Source of the DNA: Bacillus tuaregi
GTDB taxonomy: Bacteria; Bacillota; Bacilli; Bacillales; Cytobacillaceae
NCBI RefSeq assembly: GCF_900104575.1
Contig: NZ_LT629731.1
Location: 4,102,712-4,166,711 of the forward strand
Length of the DNA: 64,000 nucleotides
Direction: 5' to 3'
Shown: positions 21,582 through 30,703 of the stretch, in pieces
How positions within the stretch are numbered: position 1 is the first letter of the stretch
Layout of the letters: each line of letters begins with the position of its first letter
Translations under genes and position numbers: made by a program
Notes under the pieces: model-generated
Database searches by the model: none
What the model was told of the DNA's origin: nothing
The model's input: only the letters and a program-made list of their open reading frames with translations

Positions 21582-22181
21582 TTATTCCTTCAAAATCCGT
21601 CTAGCCTCCAGCAGCCTCTGCATCCCCGTGAACAATTCGATGAAGATATAGAGAATAGTGGTGTAGACCAGATAGGACTGGAATAATACCATTAAGGAAA
21701 ATAGGATAAAGCCCTCTGTTCGTTCGGCAAGCCCCGGCTGATAGTAGAAGGATTTTTCACTTTGCTTATCTGAGACGGCACCAACAGTTAGAAAAATAGT
21801 CATCACGATAATAATGGAGCTAGCCAAAAGCATGAGTAAAAAGAGAATTTTAGGTTCTGGGTGGCGCAGCGCCAAGGCGATAATGATGCCTACTTCTACA
21901 ACCCGGTCAAAGGTTACATCCAGTACGGTCCCCCAGCCTGAGGAGGTACGGCTTAGTCTCGCCATACTTCCATCTACAGCATCAAGAAACCCCGAGATCC
22001 AAAGCACCGCCACACCTAAATATGGCTGATCAAAATAGATGATGACACTCGCTGCCACTCCTACTAGAAAAGCCGTAACTGTAATTTGATTTGCAGATAA
22101 TCCGAGCCGAAGCAGACCTTTTGCTGTTCTTTCTATCAAAGGCTGCACATATATACGTCCATGTGTATCAAGCACATTCAT
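21582..22181 (-). CDS. CDP-alcohol phosphatidyltransferase-family protein (YnjF-like)
   Basis: The signature D-x2-DG-x2-AR-x8-G-x3-D-x3-D is complete: LDAVDGSMARLSR ... GWGTVLDVTFD at about residues 68-95. The 199-residue protein has about six membrane helices. The family moves a phospho-alcohol from CDP-linked donors to make phospholipids or related lipids. In E. coli ynjF is the last gene of ydjXYZ-ynjABCDEF, as here it ends the operon. Substrate unknown. Confidence 0.88.
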   Translation of the reverse strand: MNVLDTHGRIYVQPLIERTAKGLLRLGLSANQITVTAFLVGVAASVIIYFDQPYLGVAVLWISGFLDAVDGSMARLSRTSSGWGTVLDVTFDRVVEVGIIIALALRHPEPKILFLLMLLASSIIIVMTIFLTVGAVSDKQSEKSFYYQPGLAERTEGFILFSLMVLFQSYLVYTTILYIFIELFTGMQRLLEARRILKE

Positions 22182-22230: not shown

Positions 22231-23253
22231 TCAAATCCCCTTAGGATACCAAACGATCTTCTCTACTGGAATACAAAGCTTCACGCTAGTGCCCATCTCT
22301 GGCGCTGTACCCCAAATCGGATGCTGAACCTCTATTTCATGGTCCTGGATCTCCACTAACACCATTTGCATCTTCGGTTCATACTTCACTCTTTTAACCC
22401 TGCCGTCCAGTACTACTTTATCCTTTTCACTATCCCAGCTTGAACCGTGGACAGTCAGCTGCACAGACTCTGCAGGCAGCCAGCCCATATTATATTCGGT
22501 AGGTACAGACGGAAAACACTCTCCTAACCATTCCTGCCATTGTTCACGCGAGAAACGATTTTTTAATGAGAAGAAGGTGGCGACTTTTTCACTGCGGGGT
22601 CGTTGATAAAAATCAAGTGGCTTTCCTTCCTGAAGAATTCTTCCGTTCATTAACAATCCCACTCGATCAGCAACAGAAAAAGCCTCATCCATGTAATGGG
22701 TAATCCATAAAATTGAAAACCCATGTTGCTTTTGCAGATTATAGAGCCATTCAGTAAGCTGCACTCGAAGCGGGGCATCAAGCGAGGCAAAAGGCTCGTC
22801 CAATAAAAGCAAATCGGGCTTCAGCACAAGGACCCTGCCAAGCGACACACGCTGCTGCTGTCCGCCGGAGAGCTGGTGTGGATAACGATTCTCCAGCCCT
22901 TCAAGCTGTAAAATACTTAAATATTGCTTCACCTGTTCATAGCGTTTCTTAGCTGGAATAGCGCGGGCACGTAAACCAAACGCTAAATTATCCAGCACCG
23001 TCATATGGGGAAATAGCCTCGGCTCCTGAAACACCAATCCTGTTTGCCCGCGTCTATCCTCCTTCCAGAGAATAGTACCTTCTGAGAAAGAAGAAAGGCC
23101 GGCAATTCCTCTTAATAAGGTTGTTTTCCCGCTTCCAGACGGTCCCATCAATACATAGATTTCAGACTCATCTATTTCGAGTGTAATGGAGGAAAGAATT
23201 TGTTGATTTCCATAACGAATGCCAGCATCTTTTATTTTCAACATTTGACTCAC
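22231..23253 (-). CDS. ynjD: ABC transporter ATPase (YnjD-like)
   Basis: Walker A is GPSGSGKTT, the signature LSGGQQQR, Walker B LLLLDEPFASLD. The Q-loop is FQEPRLFPHM. After residue about 215 a C-terminal extension of TOBE type (VKRVKYEPKMQMVLVE) follows, so the 340-residue protein is longer than E. coli YnjD. It overlaps the permease gene by four bases and is followed by ynjF after 49 bases. Confidence 0.9.
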   Translation of the reverse strand: MSQMLKIKDAGIRYGNQQILSSITLEIDESEIYVLMGPSGSGKTTLLRGIAGLSSFSEGTILWKEDRRGQTGLVFQEPRLFPHMTVLDNLAFGLRARAIPAKKRYEQVKQYLSILQLEGLENRYPHQLSGGQQQRVSLGRVLVLKPDLLLLDEPFASLDAPLRVQLTEWLYNLQKQHGFSILWITHYMDEAFSVADRVGLLMNGRILQEGKPLDFYQRPRSEKVATFFSLKNRFSREQWQEWLGECFPSVPTEYNMGWLPAESVQLTVHGSSWDSEKDKVVLDGRVKRVKYEPKMQMVLVEIQDHEIEVQHPIWGTAPEMGTSVKLCIPVEKIVWYPKGI

Positions 23254-24071
23254 CCCCTAAGCCCTAATATCTTTTTATTACACCATTTTAAAAGAATATA
23301 ATAAACCAGCACTAACAAAATGACCGGCACAAAAAACCATAATGAGTAAACAGCGACAATTGATGCATTTCCACTTGAGGCAAAAGGAAAAATAATTAAA
23401 GGCAGCGTCATTAAGGTCCCCCCGCTCATAATCCAGGTTGGTAAATATTGACTCATTGATATGACCACTACCAGTAGACAGGAAAGCAGCAGTGCAGGAA
23501 GTAATAATGGAAGCTCAATCCAAATAAATATTTTCCACCCGCCTGCTCCAAGACTTAAGGCAGCCTCCTGGAGTTTCCCGCCCAGCTGATTAAATTGATA
23601 CCAAAGCATTACAATAAAATAAGGCATCGTGATAAGTGAGTGCACAAGCGCCACGCTTATATAATCAGATAAAAAATCAAAGTGAAGGGACAGATGGTGC
23701 AGCCCCATCACCGATACGGTCAACGGGATGAATAATGGTGAAAGGAGAACAATAAATACGCCCCCTTTTCCTGTGAAGCTTTTTTGGCTCAGTGCTTTTG
23801 CAGCAGGAAAACCTAATAAAATATTAAGCAATACCGTAATCCCCGCAACAAGAAGACTGTTTGTCAGTGCTTCCAAGGCTCTGCCAGAGGGTGAGAATAG
23901 ATAATGCCAAGAATCAAGATTCCATTGCTTTGGAAAGAGCTCCGGCCATGGCCACAGCTTAGTAAAGCTCCAAATGATTACAGATATAAATGGAAGAATA
24001 ATAAATAAGCTCATTCCAATTAAACAAAGTGCAATAAGTATTCTATTTACCACTATACTTATCCTTTCCAT
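23250..24071 (-). CDS. ABC transporter permease, second half of YnjC-type pair
   Basis: GGGAGGAG precedes ATG 24071; an ATG eight codons upstream is possible. The 273-residue protein has six membrane helices and an EAA loop near LQEAALSLGAGGWKIFIWIELPLLLP (core LGAGGWKIF). E. coli YnjC is one protein of two fused permease halves; here the halves are separate genes overlapping by 13 bases. Confidence 0.88.
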   Translation of the reverse strand: MERISIVVNRILIALCLIGMSLFIILPFISVIIWSFTKLWPWPELFPKQWNLDSWHYLFSPSGRALEALTNSLLVAGITVLLNILLGFPAAKALSQKSFTGKGGVFIVLLSPLFIPLTVSVMGLHHLSLHFDFLSDYISVALVHSLITMPYFIVMLWYQFNQLGGKLQEAALSLGAGGWKIFIWIELPLLLPALLLSCLLVVVISMSQYLPTWIMSGGTLMTLPLIIFPFASSGNASIVAVYSLWFFVPVILLVLVYYILLKWCNKKILGLRG

Positions 24072-24961
24072 ACACTCCTCCCACTGGCCAACCATTTCCT
24101 TTGGCAGATTAATAAAACGATTCCGATGAGAAGAGCAACCAAAGCAAGCACGATATTCATGGCCATCGCGAGCGGCTGTCTGCTTAAACCGAACTGGGTA
24201 TATTCCTGCCAGGCCAGCACAGGAATAAAGCCGAATGACGTTTTGGCCATCAAGGCTGGAATTTCATATGAGCCTAATACAAAGGAAAACACAACCCACA
24301 TACCACCAACCCAAATCGGTAACAGAATCGGAATAAAGACCCAGCGAATCATTTGCGATTGATTCGCTCCCAGCATTTTGACTGTGTCCTTCCATTCCAA
24401 GAAAAGCTTTATCACAAAGGGATAAAGCAGCAGAACAATAAAAGGAATCTCCTTCCATGAATAGGCAAGGATTACTCCTATCCCCCATTGATCATGAATT
24501 AAAACTGGAAAGGCTTCAAACGAGTCAATCCAGCCCAGATGATAGGCAATACGGGAATACCAGCCGGTTTGCATAAAGGTCTGGGTCAGCATATAAGCCG
24601 CTAATAAATGCGGAACCCCAAAGGGAAGCTGGAAAATCAGATGGGACCATGTCCGGTTATACGTATACGATGCTAAAAGCAATGCAATGAACAGCCCAAT
24701 CATGCCGGCAAGAAGTGAAACCGCCCCTGCTATTCCAACCGTTACACCAAGGGATTCAAAAAAGGAAATATCAAACAGCTCTTTATAGGCCCAGCCTGCC
24801 TCACCTGCTCCGTATATTTCCTCATAATCCCCCAGACTAATTCGAAAGGAATGAATAAACCCTCCAATAAAAAAGAAAATCACAAACAAAAGGGCCGGGA
24901 GAACCCCTAACAGCCCTTTATGCTTATGAATAAATGTCGTGATATTATTGATTTGCCACAT
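24059..24961 (-). CDS. ABC transporter permease, first half of YnjC-type pair
   Basis: I choose ATG 24961 (MWQINNITTFI), inside the end of the substrate-binding protein gene; an in-frame ATG 14 codons upstream would extend the overlap. About six or seven membrane helices and the loop TVKMLGANQSQMIRWVFIP (EAA type) are seen. With the next gene it forms the membrane channel of the YnjBCD-type importer. Confidence 0.88.
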   Translation of the reverse strand: MWQINNITTFIHKHKGLLGVLPALLFVIFFFIGGFIHSFRISLGDYEEIYGAGEAGWAYKELFDISFFESLGVTVGIAGAVSLLAGMIGLFIALLLASYTYNRTWSHLIFQLPFGVPHLLAAYMLTQTFMQTGWYSRIAYHLGWIDSFEAFPVLIHDQWGIGVILAYSWKEIPFIVLLLYPFVIKLFLEWKDTVKMLGANQSQMIRWVFIPILLPIWVGGMWVVFSFVLGSYEIPALMAKTSFGFIPVLAWQEYTQFGLSRQPLAMAMNIVLALVALLIGIVLLICQRKWLASGRSVWKG

Positions 24962-26216
24962 TGTCAATCCAGCCTCGTTCAAGCCATTCAACATATTGTG
25001 CACTCATCTCTGGAAGCCGGTGCTCCGACAGCTCTTGCTCTGGTAAAGTTGCCGGACCCCTATCTATCTCTTCTAACCTCTGCTTCATATCTTCTGGCAA
25101 ACGGTTAACTGCTAGGGCCGTATTTTCTCCCCAATATTCGAGCTCCATCTTCTTCAACTGGGCATCAGGTGATAGTAAATGGTTGATAACGACCATTGCT
25201 GCATCCTGATGTGGTGCATTATAAGGTATGGCTAAAAAGTGTGTATTGGTGAGAGTTCCTTTATCAAGGACAAAAGTCTTTGAGCTTTTTGGAAACTCTC
25301 CGCTCGTCATATAATTTGAAGTACCTGCTTCATCATACCCCATTGTCATCCACACTTCACCATTTTTATATAGCTGGTCAAGCTGGGCAAGGGATTGTGG
25401 GTATGAGCTCCCTTCTCTCCATAGATACGGCTTCATGCGATTTAAAGCCTTCCATACTTCCTCTGCTTCTTGTTCAATTAAATCCTGATCAAAAACATCT
25501 AGGAAAGCGGAGTAATCCTCACTTGTTTCATTTAAGATATGACGTATAAATGCACTACCTGTAAAATCGGGCGGAGCCGGATACGTAAATTTGCCCGGGT
25601 TAGCCTTTACCCATTTCTCAAGCTCTGCTAATGATGAAGGAGGATTCTTTACTTTACTTGAATCATATGTAAATACAAATTGCACTTTCCCCCATGGAGC
25701 TTCATATCCTTCTGTTGGATAACCAAAATCATATTGTACATCAGGACTATCCTTATCAACATATTGCTGATAGTTAGGTAAAGCCGCTGTAATCGGTCCT
25801 AATAATAGATCCTTTTCTTTGGCTGTTTTAAAGTTTTCGCCATTAATCCAAAGGACATCCATGACTCCGTCTTCTTTGCCAGACTGTTTCTCAACCACGA
25901 GCTTGTTAATAAATTCGACGGCGTCCATCGGCTGTCTTTTCAGCGTAATATTATATTCTTCCTTCAATTGCGGGGCAATATACTCATCAATATAGCGATT
26001 GACGCCCTCATCACCGCCCCATAAGTAGAAATGAACGGTACTTCCTTTTGCATCTTCTACAATGGTTTCCCAATCCTTATCTAATACAGATACTACCGCT
26101 TGATTATCGTTACCCTTCTCATCCTTCTTCTTGCTTTCTTCGTTATTCGAACATCCAGACAGGATAAGAAAAAACACCATGAGTAGTGCAACAGATTGTT
26201 TCTTCCAGTTATTCAA
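24945..26216 (-). CDS. ynjB: ABC transporter substrate-binding lipoprotein (YnjB-like)
   Basis: The signal peptide ends FFLILSGCSNN, a lipobox. The 423-residue protein has the extended YnjB features: VHFYLWGGDEGVNRYID early in the mature part, DVLWINGENF, and PPDFTGSAFIRH. The ligand is not known for the family. The gene follows the small membrane protein by 17 bases and overlaps the first permease gene by 17. Confidence 0.88.
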   Translation of the reverse strand: MNNWKKQSVALLMVFFLILSGCSNNEESKKKDEKGNDNQAVVSVLDKDWETIVEDAKGSTVHFYLWGGDEGVNRYIDEYIAPQLKEEYNITLKRQPMDAVEFINKLVVEKQSGKEDGVMDVLWINGENFKTAKEKDLLLGPITAALPNYQQYVDKDSPDVQYDFGYPTEGYEAPWGKVQFVFTYDSSKVKNPPSSLAELEKWVKANPGKFTYPAPPDFTGSAFIRHILNETSEDYSAFLDVFDQDLIEQEAEEVWKALNRMKPYLWREGSSYPQSLAQLDQLYKNGEVWMTMGYDEAGTSNYMTSGEFPKSSKTFVLDKGTLTNTHFLAIPYNAPHQDAAMVVINHLLSPDAQLKKMELEYWGENTALAVNRLPEDMKQRLEEIDRGPATLPEQELSEHRLPEMSAQYVEWLERGWIDNVANQ

Positions 26217-26233: not shown

Positions 26234-26446
26234 TTAGATACTACAGTTAGATTTGCAATCCAAATAGCCATCCAACTGACTAAGCAGAAAATAGAGACAA
26301 AAACTCATACTATCAATTGTAATCACTACTTGCAGCTTCAGGTAAAAAAGTAAACTGAGGCCATTAAATAGGATTAACATAAGCAACAGAATCCAGCGTA
26401 TATGCCAAATAATCCTCTGATACATTTTCGTTCTATCTCTAGTCAT
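26234..26446 (-). CDS. Small membrane protein coupled to the selenoprotein-like gene
   Basis: The 70-residue product has one or two hydrophobic segments (IIWHIRWILLLMLILFNGL and a Phe/Leu-rich stretch) and three Cys near the end (SFC, DCKSNC). Its ATG overlaps the final stop of the GrdB-like gene as ATGA, so translation would be coupled to ribosomes that have passed the internal UGA. No family is recognised. Confidence 0.65.
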   Translation of the reverse strand: MTRDRTKMYQRIIWHIRWILLLMLILFNGLSLLFYLKLQVVITIDSMSFCLYFLLSQLDGYLDCKSNCSI

Positions 26447-27195
26447 TTGTTACGTCCTTTCCATTTATAAGGAAGCTTCACGATCGTTTCAGGCTCTTTC
26501 ATGTCCTTTAAATACTCAAGGCAATCTACTAGTATTTGTCTTTGCATCATGACCTCACCTGCTTTCCCAAAGCTGCGCCCGAGTGGGAATTTTATTTGTA
26601 ATGCCCTTGGAACTCTAACCTTTCTAGTTAAATGGCCGAGATGTGAAATGGAAATGGTCGGAATCCCTGCTTCCTCAATTGCATATTGAATCAATCCCAC
26701 GGATTGATGACATATATATCAGCCTGGGTTTAAAATAACCGCATCCACCTTTTCTTCCTTAAGCCGCTTGATAATCATGGGTATGCTTTCTTCAATCAAT
26801 GGGTTCGTGTCTGGTATATACCCCATCAATCCATAATTTGTTGGTGCCACATTACCAATGATTCCTTCAGCTACTAATTCTTTTAATCGTGTTAATGGAA
26901 AAACACAATTAATATCCTGATCAGCATCTGTTCGGTCATAATGGGTGTGACTAATCATCAAATCTTCCTCACTAAGGTCTGCCGGGAGAAATCTAATGGT
27001 ATGGTCCCCAGCATCGACATCGAATACCTCTTGTGTTTTTAGATGAACACCTGATGTTGTCACAAGCGCAATAACCGATTCGTTCGCAGGCTTTTTATAT
27101 ACGGTAAAAGGAATATCACCTTCAATTGTTTGCACCATATTCTGAGCCTTTAATCCAACCACAGACTCAATCAGCTTATTGCCTGATAGCTTCAT
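26443..27195 (-). CDS. GrdB-family redox protein with in-frame UGA: candidate selenoprotein
   Basis: Two open segments in the same frame are joined by a single TGA at 26721-26719. With the UGA read as Sec the product is 250 residues; Sec is residue 159 in DAVILNPG-U-YIC-HQSVGLIQ, a UxxC motif at the place where glycine/sarcosine/betaine/proline reductase B-type proteins carry Sec or Cys. The part beyond the UGA (AIEEAGIPTISIS, PRALQIKFPLGRSFGKAGE) is family sequence. A perfect 8-bp stem with GTG loop starts 10 bases after the UGA. The start is ATG 27195 behind AGGAGA, overlapping the upstream gene by 20 bases. The next gene overlaps the true end. A nonsense mutation of a Cys codon is the alternative. 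Confidence 0.8.
26690..26721 (-). promoter_or_regulatory. Sec UGA codon with bacterial SECIS-like hairpin
   Basis: UGA is at 26721-26719. ATCAATCC (26708-26701) pairs perfectly with GGATTGAT (26697-26690) over the loop GTG. The loop begins 18 bases after the UGA and has G first, in line with the known bacterial SECIS pattern (short apical loop with G early, roughly 16-37 bases from the UGA). Confidence 0.65.
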
Positions 27196-28195
27196 GACGT
27201 GCTTCTCTCCTTTCAATAAGCCAAAATAATCCACCTATCGCACTTGATATCGTAACAAGAAAGAAAAATAATAGCGAAACGGACAATGCGATTCCTTGTG
27301 GTACCCCAAGACCTTGGAAGAAAAAAACATAACCAGCCTCCCTGACTCCAAGACCATTAAGAGACACAGGCAGCATTGTGATGACTGAAATTAGGGTAAT
27401 AATGACTAATAAGTGAAGAAACGGAATATCGATTCCAAAACTTAAGAATAATAAATCATTGATCCACGCCATTCCTATTTGAAAAAGCAGAGATAGTAGA
27501 AGTATCATTCCCCACCATTTCCAGCTCTCGGTTCGATAATCCATAGCCTTTTCTCCAACACCTCTTATAGCCTGTTTTCCTTTTATAAGGGAGCTGTTTA
27601 TTTTTCCGAGGATCGTTGTTGTTTTAGGCTGAATGGAATGATGAATATCCTTTTTCAGCCAATGCTTGATTAGCAAATAACCTATTATACTTACTGCAAG
27701 CAGAATGCATAATGAGATGATATAGGGTCTTGATTGATCCATGAATAAAGCAGATATGAGAACGATTCCAACTAGAGCCAGGCCGCTTGTTAATCGTTCG
27801 AATAAAACAGATGCAGTCGCTGTCGATACAGTTGTATTTTTACCTAAATAATAGATCCTGACCACATCTCCGCCTACACTCCCCGGCATAAAATTGTTAA
27901 AGAATAATCCAATATAATATAGCTGTCCTAATTTTGCCATTGATGTATATTTATTCGAACTCTGTTTACTTGAACTATCTACAAGCATTTTCCACTTCCA
28001 AATACTCGTCAGTACGGTTATTTGTATCGCAATAAACGCTGCACATAGAAAAAGGGGAGAGCCCTCCTTCATTACACGAAGGGCCTCTTCCCACTCAATC
28101 ATTAGCATTAACCAAACCATTAATCCTGCGCTTACTGCCATTCTTAAGATTAATTGGATTCGAGATTTTGCTTTTTCTATTTTTTCGTGACTCAT
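27176..28195 (-). CDS. YbhN/UPF0104-type membrane protein (MprF flippase-like domain)
   Basis: The 339-residue protein has about eight membrane helices and the family motifs FFNNFMPGSVGGDVVRIYYL and LPVSLNGLGVREAGYVFFF (cores NNFMPGSVGGD and NGLGVREAG). This is the lysylphosphatidylglycerol synthase transmembrane domain family, thought to flip or translocate lipids. It overlaps the upstream gene by four bases and the GrdB-like gene by 20. Confidence 0.88.
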   Translation of the reverse strand: MSHEKIEKAKSRIQLILRMAVSAGLMVWLMLMIEWEEALRVMKEGSPLFLCAAFIAIQITVLTSIWKWKMLVDSSSKQSSNKYTSMAKLGQLYYIGLFFNNFMPGSVGGDVVRIYYLGKNTTVSTATASVLFERLTSGLALVGIVLISALFMDQSRPYIISLCILLAVSIIGYLLIKHWLKKDIHHSIQPKTTTILGKINSSLIKGKQAIRGVGEKAMDYRTESWKWWGMILLLSLLFQIGMAWINDLLFLSFGIDIPFLHLLVIITLISVITMLPVSLNGLGVREAGYVFFFQGLGVPQGIALSVSLLFFFLVTISSAIGGLFWLIERREARHEAIRQ

Positions 28196-29367
28196 TGGAC
28201 CTTAGCCCCCTTTTTACCCTTCAAAAATGCATCCAGTTTTGGTTTGAAGATTATGCCCAATACAGCTAAAGCAATGACAACTGTAAACAGGGTAAATAAT
28301 ATTTGTACCGTTCCTGTGGCCGTTTCACCAAGATAGGAATATAGAATCGTAGCCGGCAACTGCCCAAGACCTGTTGCCCAGAAAAAGGACCAAAAGCGTA
28401 TGGACGTAACCCCTGCAGCATAGCTGACCATATCAAAGGATACAATCGGCAGAATTCTTGCTAAAAACACGGAATGTTTACCATACTTATCAAAGAAAAG
28501 ATCCCACCACTGCAGCGCCTTTTTTGAAACGATTTTTTCTACAACAGGGCGTCCTAAAAATTTAGCAAGATAGAAGCAAATGATGGCTCCCAGCATGGCA
28601 CTGCTCCAAGACAGAATAGCACCATAGAACCAGCCGAATAAAAGTCCATTTGCAAATGTAATGACAAATGCCGGAAGAGGTGCCATAACGGATTGAAACA
28701 CCATTAATAATCCTGAAATAACCGCCGCTAAAGGTCCAAATGAAAGCAAGAAATCACGAAAGCCCTCCACATCAGCATTCTTTAAGTAAACAACAGAGCT
28801 ATTGACAAGGTCATTAATTGAACCTTGGCCCAAGTAGAAAATTAAAAATACCCCCAGCAACCCGAAAAATGCCATCATTCCATATCTGCTAGACGACGAA
28901 AGCCTGTTCCAGTCCATATTTGGGTTACTTTTAATGGTCAGCGGGGTTTTCCGTGCTACCAAAAGCGAAACAACACCGACTAGTAAAGCTATTACTAAAG
29001 CAATATTCATTCCACCTAAAGATACCGCATTCTCAAGAAACAATCCCTTACGCACCATAAAGGCTGGCATGATAGATAAACTTCCATTCATTATATGAAT
29101 GATTATGATAATAGCAAAACTAACACTAGTTGCAATAGGACCGACTACCTTTTTCTCCCATAATGATAGATTCTTCGCATTCATAAACAACCTTGCAAAG
29201 TAAAACCACAGCCCGGCCAAGAGGCTAAACGTAATCATAACCTCGCTGTCAAAACGCATATCAATAAATTTACTTTGCATGATTAAGGTTGTAACCGCAA
29301 CCCCCATGATTAGATAAAGAAAAACAGCTGCTAGCAAATGAATGATTGTTTGAAAGAAAAATTTCAT
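28192..29367 (-). CDS. TVP38/TMEM64 (VTT-domain) membrane protein, YdjX/YdjZ-like
   Basis: The C-terminal half (about 215-375) has the VTT pattern: FANGLLFGWFYGAILSW, FYLAKFLGRPVVEK, FLARILPIVSFDMVSYAAG and WATGLGQLPATILYSYLG. The N-terminal 200 residues add about six membrane helices not present in YdjX/YdjZ. The family is linked to lipid handling and membrane homeostasis. In E. coli ydjX and ydjZ flank ydjY; here the gene follows the YdjY-like gene by 15 bases. Confidence 0.85.
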   Translation of the reverse strand: MKFFFQTIIHLLAAVFLYLIMGVAVTTLIMQSKFIDMRFDSEVMITFSLLAGLWFYFARLFMNAKNLSLWEKKVVGPIATSVSFAIIIIIHIMNGSLSIMPAFMVRKGLFLENAVSLGGMNIALVIALLVGVVSLLVARKTPLTIKSNPNMDWNRLSSSSRYGMMAFFGLLGVFLIFYLGQGSINDLVNSSVVYLKNADVEGFRDFLLSFGPLAAVISGLLMVFQSVMAPLPAFVITFANGLLFGWFYGAILSWSSAMLGAIICFYLAKFLGRPVVEKIVSKKALQWWDLFFDKYGKHSVFLARILPIVSFDMVSYAAGVTSIRFWSFFWATGLGQLPATILYSYLGETATGTVQILFTLFTVVIALAVLGIIFKPKLDAFLKGKKGAKVQ

Positions 29368-29382
29368 TTTATCACCCGATTT

Positions 29383-30073
29383 CTAGAAATTGTAAGTCAA
29401 GATAACAGCCGTTCCGTCCTCAGGAAGTACATCAGGATCACCGTGGAATTCTGCTGCTCCGCTTTCAAATGCTCCTACTGGCTGGTTAGCATTACTAATA
29501 ATTCCAACAGGACAGCTGTCAAAGCACATGAAGCAGCCAGTTACCTTATCAGCTGCTGCATCATAGTTACCGCCAAAATGATACTCAAGCTTCTTTCCTG
29601 TGCTATCAACCTACCTCATTGATATCATACTCTTTGCCAGCGCCTTCCCATGTAATGCTGACATTTACCTTGTCACCCTTAATGAATTTTCCTTCTGCAG
29701 TTTCTTCAAATTCCTTGCTCGCATCTCCGCCTTTATCAACCGCTGGAGTACCGCCAAGCTTCATTAAAGCCTCATTGAATAATAGAGGATCTGCATATGT
29801 TTTGAATACGGATTGGTCGCCATATTTTCCTTCCACCCAGTTCGCTCCATGACGTGTTGGTGTGACAAGATATTTTCCGTTGACTGTTGCATAAATCTGC
29901 ACCATTTTCTCTTCTTCGTTGATAACGATAGGATTTTCCTTACTTACTTCAACGCCTTCTTCTGCAGAAACCAGTGTAAGCTTCTCCGCTGCCTCGTTAT
30001 TCGAGCATGCTGCTAAAACATTCATTGCCAGTAATCCTGTTAATAGGACAATAGATAATTTTGTGAGTTTCAT
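29383..30073 (-). pseudogene. YdjY-like lipoprotein, frameshifted near its C-terminus
   Basis: A lipoprotein signal (MNVLAACSNN) leads to a domain with KMVQIYATVNGKYLVTPTRHG, VFKTYADP and KVNVSITWEG. The frame stops at 29606 after DINEVG. In the next frame the sequence continues as VDSTGKKLEYHFGGNYD, TGCFMCFDSCPVGI, FHGDPDVLPEDGTAV to a stop at 29383, 15 bases before the next start. The Cys segment CxxCxxxC is ferredoxin-like, as in YdjY. One extra G near 29610 explains it. The protein may be truncated and inactive, or the base may be a sequencing error. Confidence 0.75.
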
Positions 30074-30490: not shown

Positions 30491-30703
30491 CTCCTGTTTA
30501 ACAGAGCCTTTTTCAAAAAAATAATTTTGTGACATATATCACAATTATATACATGTTCTTATTTATACTATTAGTAGAATAGCATTAGGCTTATTGCTTG
30601 GTTCACCTTCATTATATAGAACCAATATATTTATTAAAACATGATTTTATAGATGAAACATTTATTAATCTATCGATTTTATAGATATTACTTTACAAAC
30701 ATA
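30491..30703. other. AT-rich spacer between two minus-strand operons
   Basis: No gene is seen. It lies upstream of the two repeats and may contain the original promoter of the ydj/ynj-like operon; I cannot place one with confidence. Confidence 0.4.

Follow-up and report, generated by a model that had tools for sequence, protein, structure and literature searches.

Selenoproteins of the PrdB type, with a UxxC redox site, were already listed in 2005 and 2008 (PMC1088965, PMC2398784), and a count of Bacillales selenoproteins made in 2006 gave three proteins in three families (PMC1794560). For this superfamily, Table 1 of a 2026 inventory contains only 'D-proline reductase TIGR04483' and 'Glycine reductase complex selenoprotein B PF07355' (PMC13188914). 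In D-proline reductase, the Sec-Cys pair has been proposed to form a selenide-sulphide during catalysis, with the pyruvoyl group of PrdA holding the substrate (PMC3091704). A precedent outside amino-acid reduction has been proposed for FarB, a GrdB-like selenoprotein of a fluoroacetate operon, which differs from the protein described here in having a GrdE-like partner and in belonging to another operon (PMC10838667). The SAO and Tso operons of Haft and co-workers (PMC13188914) likewise place selenoproteins in ABC-transport or specialised operons, but their protein families differ, and the ABC ATPase of the present locus matches SaoA no better than ABC ATPases do in general (150 against 360 bits).

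In Escherichia coli K-12, the genes ydjX-ydjY-ydjZ-ynjA-ynjB-ynjC-ynjD-ynjE-ynjF include those for an AhpD-like protein, YnjA, and a sulfurtransferase, YnjE. To our knowledge, this ydjXYZ-ynjABCDEF system has no assigned function. The operon has been listed among those activated by FNR (PMC3688515).

The locus reported here lies in a 64,000-nucleotide stretch of Bacillus tuaregi DNA (the window) and brings these two themes together. With a probability of roughly 0.87, the best overall explanation is that its PrdB-like selenoprotein is the selenocysteine (Sec) redox component of a Firmicute ydjXYZ-ynjABCDEF system. The features on which this reading draws are as follows.

21582..22181, reverse strand: CDP-alcohol phosphatidyltransferase, YnjF-like (PF01066, 53.6 bits; E. 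coli YnjF, 26% identity, E 3e-13)
22231..23253, reverse strand: ABC ATPase, YnjD-like (PF00005; E. coli YnjD, 34%, E 2e-29)
23250..24095, reverse strand: ABC permease, second half YnjC-like (E. coli YnjC, 27%, E 1e-11)
24059..25003, reverse strand: ABC permease, first half YnjC-like (in 16/16 relatives' loci; weak match to E. coli ynjC, E 0.008)
24945..26216, reverse strand: YnjB-type ABC substrate-binding protein (NF008633, 497 against a cut-off of 203; E. coli YnjB, 39%, E 2e-75)
26234..26446, reverse strand: 70-aa open reading frame (homolog in 15/16 relatives' loci; no Pfam or NCBIfam match)
26443..27195, reverse strand: PrdB-like selenoprotein gene (250 aa with UGA159 read as Sec; NPG-U-YIC-HQSVGLIQ)
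26690..26708, reverse strand: bacterial SECIS hairpin within the coding sequence (from synonymous-site conservation, covariation and folds)
26719..26721, reverse strand: Sec codon 159, an in-frame UGA (from reading frame and alignment)
27176..28195, reverse strand: LPG_synthase_TM or flippase-like membrane protein (PF03706, 138.6 bits; TIGR00374, 99.8 against 43.2)
28192..29367, reverse strand: VTT/DedA-type membrane protein, YdjZ-like (PF09335; E. coli YdjZ, 54% over 191 aa, E 2e-58)
29383..30073, reverse strand: ydjY-like lipoprotein gene, frameshifted (NF040466, 63.4 against 50; E. coli YdjY, 34%, E 1e-19)
30527..30544, forward strand: perfect 18-base palindrome of FNR/CRP type, TTGTGACATATATCACAA, upstream of the operon

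The selenoprotein frame starts with ATG at 27195, is interrupted by a single TGA at 26721-26719, and ends with TGA at 26445-26443. Reading it from 27195 to 26443 agrees with an earlier note on this DNA, made from the sequence alone, which had described two same-frame halves separated by one TGA, the second of them intact; the frame is open from UGA159 to the terminator. The same note had placed the UGA at the redox position of a U-x-x-C site, and codon 159 does fall there, in NPG-U-YICHQ. General reassignment of UGA was considered and rejected, because the gene's own terminator is a TGA and the codon is therefore not simply reassigned. A PDB sequence search with the selenoprotein gave no matches, and the fold and active site proposed here are read from its sequence alone.

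Homologs were found in 45 of the 193 genomes of the window's family, in 52 rows, of which 50 have one internal TGA, one has two TGA, and one has two TAA. A homolog fragment with two TAA stops (G046 C81 141181-141558) is probably a decayed copy. In all 20 of the closest rows, which share 67-100% identity and include the window's own, a TGA occupies column 159. A scan of species genomes with the patterns LNPGCYIC (Cys at the site) and HQSVGLIQ found a TGA at the site in 78/78 loci; TGA loci entered through HQSVGLIQ, the scan could miss distant Cys forms with other motifs, and its loci overlap partly with the family set (e.g., L085 and L017). The subfamily extends to Aerococcaceae, Tissierellaceae, Paenibacillaceae, and other phyla. 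In a sample of the phylum, one of 34 rows (L199) lacked an internal stop, and this was a Cys-containing PrdB next to PrdA with the motif CGTCH, so the site is a Sec/Cys column, as the alignment proposed in the earlier note was meant to reveal. Close homologs with Cys here and a lost hairpin, which that note would have taken as a sign of a nonsense mutation, were not seen among the 20 closest rows, all of which, the window's own included, keep both the TGA and the hairpin.

The hairpin itself has the form that had been described, a perfect 8-bp stem with a G-first loop at SECIS distance. Running from 26708 to 26690, it consists of a 5′ arm, ATCAATCC, a loop, GTG, that begins 18 nt past the UGA, and a 3′ arm, GGATTGAT. 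Its folding energy in the single sequence is unremarkable (z = +0.24 for 66 nt and -0.88 for 42 nt), and the sole Rfam match is at chance level (E 0.95). Comparison among homologs is more informative. Across 92 columns with invariant residues and degenerate codons in 20 sequences, a single codon is used in six of the seven columns of the hairpin (codons 163-169) versus two of the other 85, namely residues 158 and 160 on either side of the UGA. In 44 diverse hairpins, thinned from 87 distinct ones, 95.7% of cells pair, a percentage that leans upward because the structure was taken from one of the sequences, a bias that leaves the codon test unaffected. Changes on both sides occur in four of the eight pairs, 0 of 500 shuffles reached any of five measures, and shifting the partner by one to three columns lowers pairing to 9-53%. 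These comparisons indicate that the hairpin is under selection as an RNA structure, beyond selection at the protein level.

All four components of the decoding machinery whose presence the earlier note had asked about were found in the genome: tRNA-Sec (56.9 bits against an Rfam cut-off of 47, also called as tRNA-SeC by ARAGORN), SelB (350 bits, cut-off 242), SelA (560.7 bits, cut-off 267.9), and SelD (406 bits, cut-off 125), the last itself with one internal TGA. As SelB occurs in 170 of the 193 family genomes at a threshold of E<=1e-75, its presence is necessary but hardly discriminating; the only one of the 20 carrier genomes without SelB at that threshold is G145, a 720-contig assembly. 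Taken with the codon and hairpin comparisons, this makes it nearly certain that the gene encodes a real selenoprotein and is not a nonsense mutant. SelA, SelB, tRNA-Sec, and SelD would decode UGA159 as Sec under the guidance of the downstream hairpin, and we infer selenium insertion on these grounds.

Around the selenoprotein gene, homologs of YnjB, YnjC, YnjD, YnjF, YdjY, and YdjX/Z occur together and in an order similar to that of the E. coli operon. The difference lies in the redox and membrane components, in that E. coli has the AhpD-like YnjA and the sulfurtransferase YnjE and the window has instead the selenoprotein and the flippase-like protein. The selenoprotein occupies the operon place of ynjA, it has no counterpart in the K-12 locus (best E 1.3), and neither AhpD-like YnjA nor sulfurtransferase YnjE domains were found among the ten neighbours scanned. 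Among curated families, the YnjF-like protein comes closest to archaetidylinositol phosphate and phosphatidylinositol phosphate synthases, without reaching either cut-off (NF040950, 91.8 against 180). The ydjY-like gene is split between two frames, with pieces at 29606-30073 and about 29383-29601; most relatives in which both pieces were found have them in a single frame, and the frameshift may be a sequencing error or recent decay. The second piece carries a cysteine motif, CFMCFDSCP. Arsenosugar, organomercury, and selenite roles for the operon were considered and dropped for want of a specific marker.

The FNR/CRP-type palindrome is flanked by the ydjY-like gene and a gene for an FAD-dependent oxidoreductase. 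Even when one mismatch is allowed, the site is lacking from 15 of the 16 relatives' stretches, the exception being a one-mismatch site in L079, from the same genus, and the role of the palindrome is therefore doubtful. An FNR link to the operon is attractive, but on account of the 15 relatives that lack the site it is not used as evidence here.

Conservation of the gene group among relatives is close. All 16 relatives' loci that were read (L067-L082) group the selenoprotein with YnjB, both permeases, and the ATPase, as the window does; the CDP-alcohol enzyme is present in 15 (not seen in L079), the VTT protein in 15 (the contig of L068 begins just upstream), and the flippase in 14 (not in L072 or L081). 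The remaining three of the 20 carrier genomes were covered by coordinates and as L097-L099. Across the family, ynjB is present in 20/20 genomes with the selenoprotein clade versus 2/173 without it (Fisher p 3e-25, a value that takes related genomes as independent, which they are not). Farther out, YnjB lies within the flanks of 26 of the 78 scan loci, and gene order is altered in Facklamia, Tissierella, Ammoniphilus, and others. Where ynjB is not near the gene, it is found elsewhere in 13/14 Firmicute genomes, compared with 30/398 in the phylum sample (p 3e-13). In 24 further genomes, of which one is a Clostridiales assembly and the other 23 carry no Firmicute name, ynjB is present in five, with L148 having it already in its locus and many of the assemblies being fragmentary. 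The link between the selenoprotein and ynjB is thus strong in the Firmicute clade and weak elsewhere.

Loci that have the ynj genes and lack the selenoprotein bear on the same question from the other side. The natural REPLACEMENTS, G121 (locus L083) and G066 (locus L084), are the only family genomes with ynjB but without the clade. In both, a pyridine nucleotide-disulphide oxidoreductase is encoded in the gene group, scoring 203 and 208 bits against PF07992 and falling below the cut-off of its nearest curated model, NF004991; in L083 its gene lies directly between ynjB and the DedA-type gene, and neither locus has a selenoprotein or flippase-like match. G066 has no SelB at E<=1e-75; G121 has SelB, and elsewhere a more distant PrdB-like TGA gene (40%). 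Besides the window, 29 further Firmicute ynjB loci were found. With one at a contig end set aside, none of the remaining 28 has the selenoprotein, PrdB, or PrdA, and none a YnjA-like protein. A YnjE-like sulfurtransferase is present at 15 of them and matches to a flavin disulphide oxidoreductase at seven. Two of these matches are clear (L184, 53%; L178, 36%), and the other five (25-32%) could be paralogs matched by chance. The proposal that a flavin oxidoreductase replaces the selenoprotein is therefore limited to the two loci with checked domains, L083 and L084.

Together with the E. coli locus, these 28 selenoprotein-free loci count against the link. The variety of redox proteins at ynjB loci means that the system accepts alternatives to the Sec protein; the ynj system tolerates different redox proteins, and Sec is one solution. 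For the clade that carries the gene, operon structure and co-occurrence make a functional link of the selenoprotein to the ynj system highly probable.

The Firmicute system would then consist of a binding protein and ABC importer, DedA-type and LPG_synthase-type membrane proteins, a CDP-alcohol phosphatidyltransferase, a YdjY lipoprotein, and a selenoprotein with a U-x-x-C redox centre. On the model of PrdB, the selenol would attack a substrate and the neighbouring Cys would resolve the resulting selenide-sulphide. As no PrdA-type partner is encoded nearby, the substrate would be presented differently or would be a simple electrophile, a peroxide, or a disulphide. Most likely, the selenoprotein reduces, through selenol and thiol chemistry, either a compound handled by YnjBCD or a redox partner of the system; both the oxidoreductase role and the placing of its substrate within the ynj pathway are inferred, and any specific chemistry assigned to it can be offered only tentatively. 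One such proposal is that a Sec-dependent reductase acts on a compound imported by YnjBCD and that the CDP-alcohol phosphatidyltransferase attaches the product to a lipid, with the flippase-like and DedA-type proteins moving it. This proposal is speculative and on balance unlikely; if it were true, membrane lipid metabolism would have a selenium-dependent branch that has gone unrecognised, with a homologous operon in E. coli.

Even at the level of a general redox step, the assignment provides a chemical foothold on the ydjXYZ-ynjABCDEF system, which is spread from E. coli K-12 to many Firmicutes. In the Firmicutes described here it comes with a strong Sec-x-x-Cys redox centre, and in some relatives a flavin disulphide oxidoreductase accompanies it; the Sec form should link the system to selenium supply.

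A redox step in the ynj pathway ranks first among the readings considered, followed in order by a protective peroxidase or reductase, a selenium switch, a true proline reductase, and a nonsense mutation. The protective reading, which is a narrower form of the first, takes the protein to be a stand-alone seleno-peroxidase or selenol-disulphide reductase guarding against oxidative or electrophile stress in the ynj pathway or the membrane. In its favour are the position of the gene where E. coli has an AhpD-like protein and the flavin disulphide oxidoreductase carried instead by two relatives. Peroxidase activity has reportedly been found for GrdB, to go by the title of a 2007 paper by Grobe. Proteins of the DedA group COG0398 also occur as fusions to pyridine nucleotide-disulphide oxidoreductase domains and are tied to aerobic metabolism (PMC10127716), an association that fits awkwardly with an anaerobic reductase and speaks for protection. 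On the other hand, a binding protein and a CDP-alcohol transferase encoded in so tight an operon suggest a dedicated metabolite. A purely protective role is rated as a serious possibility that is less likely than not.

The arrangement of overlapping genes suggests a regulatory reading as well. As the earlier note observed, the selenoprotein gene stops within the start codon region of the following open reading frame (the 70-aa frame, 26446-26234), the two overlapping as ATGA. At its other end, the selenoprotein gene starts within the 3′ end of the upstream flippase-like frame (27176-28195). Termination at the UGA when selenium is low could thus cut translation of the coupled downstream genes and so regulate the importer. 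Such a switch would not be exclusive of the other readings. In some relatives, however, the gene is apart from ynjB or the order differs, so coupling is not a general property, and a switch as the explanation of the locus is improbable.

Family placement bears on whether the protein is a D-proline reductase subunit. The closest curated family is PrdB (TIGR04483), for which the protein scores 197.2 bits against a cut-off of 300; as a positive control, a true PrdB from the same genome scores 402.8 bits against that cut-off. The protein resembles PrdB in family, length, U-x-x-C site, and UGA, with 40-41% identity to the genome's two PrdB copies, and differs in its motif (NPG-U-YICHQ versus TAG-U-GTCH), in its neighbours, and in being tied to ynjB. 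With the protein B of glycine, sarcosine, and betaine reductase (GrdB/GrdF/GrdH), it shares a C-terminal region with the UxxC site, but the N-terminal half of those profiles is absent, the scores are 48-53 bits, and no Grd partner lies among the ten neighbours scanned. The GrdB-family label first given to the gene stands to the extent that PF07355 (GRDB) passes its cut-off (36.7 against 22, over residues 37-155 only); it does not hold at the level of curated families, where PrdB is nearest and TIGR01917 (47.9 bits against 602.2) and TIGR01918 (53 bits against 65.45) both fall below cut-off.

The genome holds two prd clusters, each with PrdA and an adjoining PrdB with the motif TAG-U-GTCH. The two clusters adjoin each other (L066; G000 C16 3935000-3952000). 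In the cluster that was scanned, PrdA scores 981 bits (cut-off 700), PrdC 605.5 (490), and PrdD 363 (320), and PrdB and PrdC have one TGA inside each. Around the selenoprotein, neither prd genes nor a Grd partner were found among the ten neighbours scanned in the window, and PrdA, PrdC, PrdD, PrdE, and proline racemase were found at E<=1e-5 at none of the 78 subfamily loci, whose flanks extended up to 10 kb per side and less at contig ends. A quick tree, used as support only since it flags long branches, sets the two PrdB copies apart and groups 37 Firmicute rows (SH-aLRT 95). The selenoprotein belongs to a separate PrdB-like subfamily, outside any linked glycine or proline reductase, and is probably not a proline reductase subunit.

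That the protein is nevertheless a genuine PrdB whose PrdA partner is encoded elsewhere would accord with its best family match, at 197 bits, and with a genome that encodes PrdA in two clusters. Each PrdA already has its own adjoining PrdB, however, no prd genes were found in the flanks of any of the 78 loci, the score lies below the equivalog cut-off, the tree separates the gene from both copies, and the gene tracks ynjB. With context, score, and tree all against it, this reading was rejected and is considered very unlikely. Least probable of all, with hardly any chance of being correct, is that the TGA is a true stop inactivating a PrdB-like gene: the standard code does stop here and two separate open reading frames are listed, but a random nonsense mutation, which the earlier note judged unable to explain the position and the hairpin together, does not account for a TGA kept in all 20 close rows and all 78 scan loci, a downstream half that is still intact, and nucleotide-level conservation of the hairpin.

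The proposal that this is a new Bacillaceae selenoprotein holds in part. It is new at the level of the subfamily, as far as the tabulated families of the sources extend, but PrdB-type UxxC selenoproteins have long been known (PMC1088965, PMC2398784, PMC13188914) and the subfamily is found in other families and phyla too. An association of the subfamily with ynj genes was not found in the literature searched, and an earlier account may exist in Haft and Gwadz 2023 or Haft and Tolstoy 2025. What is likely to surprise specialists is a selenoprotein so tightly tied to the ynj system and, equally, look-alikes of 'proline reductase' with no proline reductase alongside. Since the labels 'PrdB' and 'proline reductase' can cover proteins that are probably not proline reductases, annotation of selenoproteomes and of Stickland fermentation may be partly wrong.

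Two further kinds of PrdB-like TGA gene were encountered. One, in L041, L043, and L044, belongs to the same family, has the motif TAG-U-PLCHRTVVTVQRG and a different hairpin register, and lacks a PrdA match in the flanks examined. The other, more distant and with the motif VPV-U-PVCHVSVGH, is a second gene in two Clostridia assemblies (L111 475-525 and L117 1048-1098), where it precedes the subfamily member by about 2 kb and has its own hairpin in the same place.
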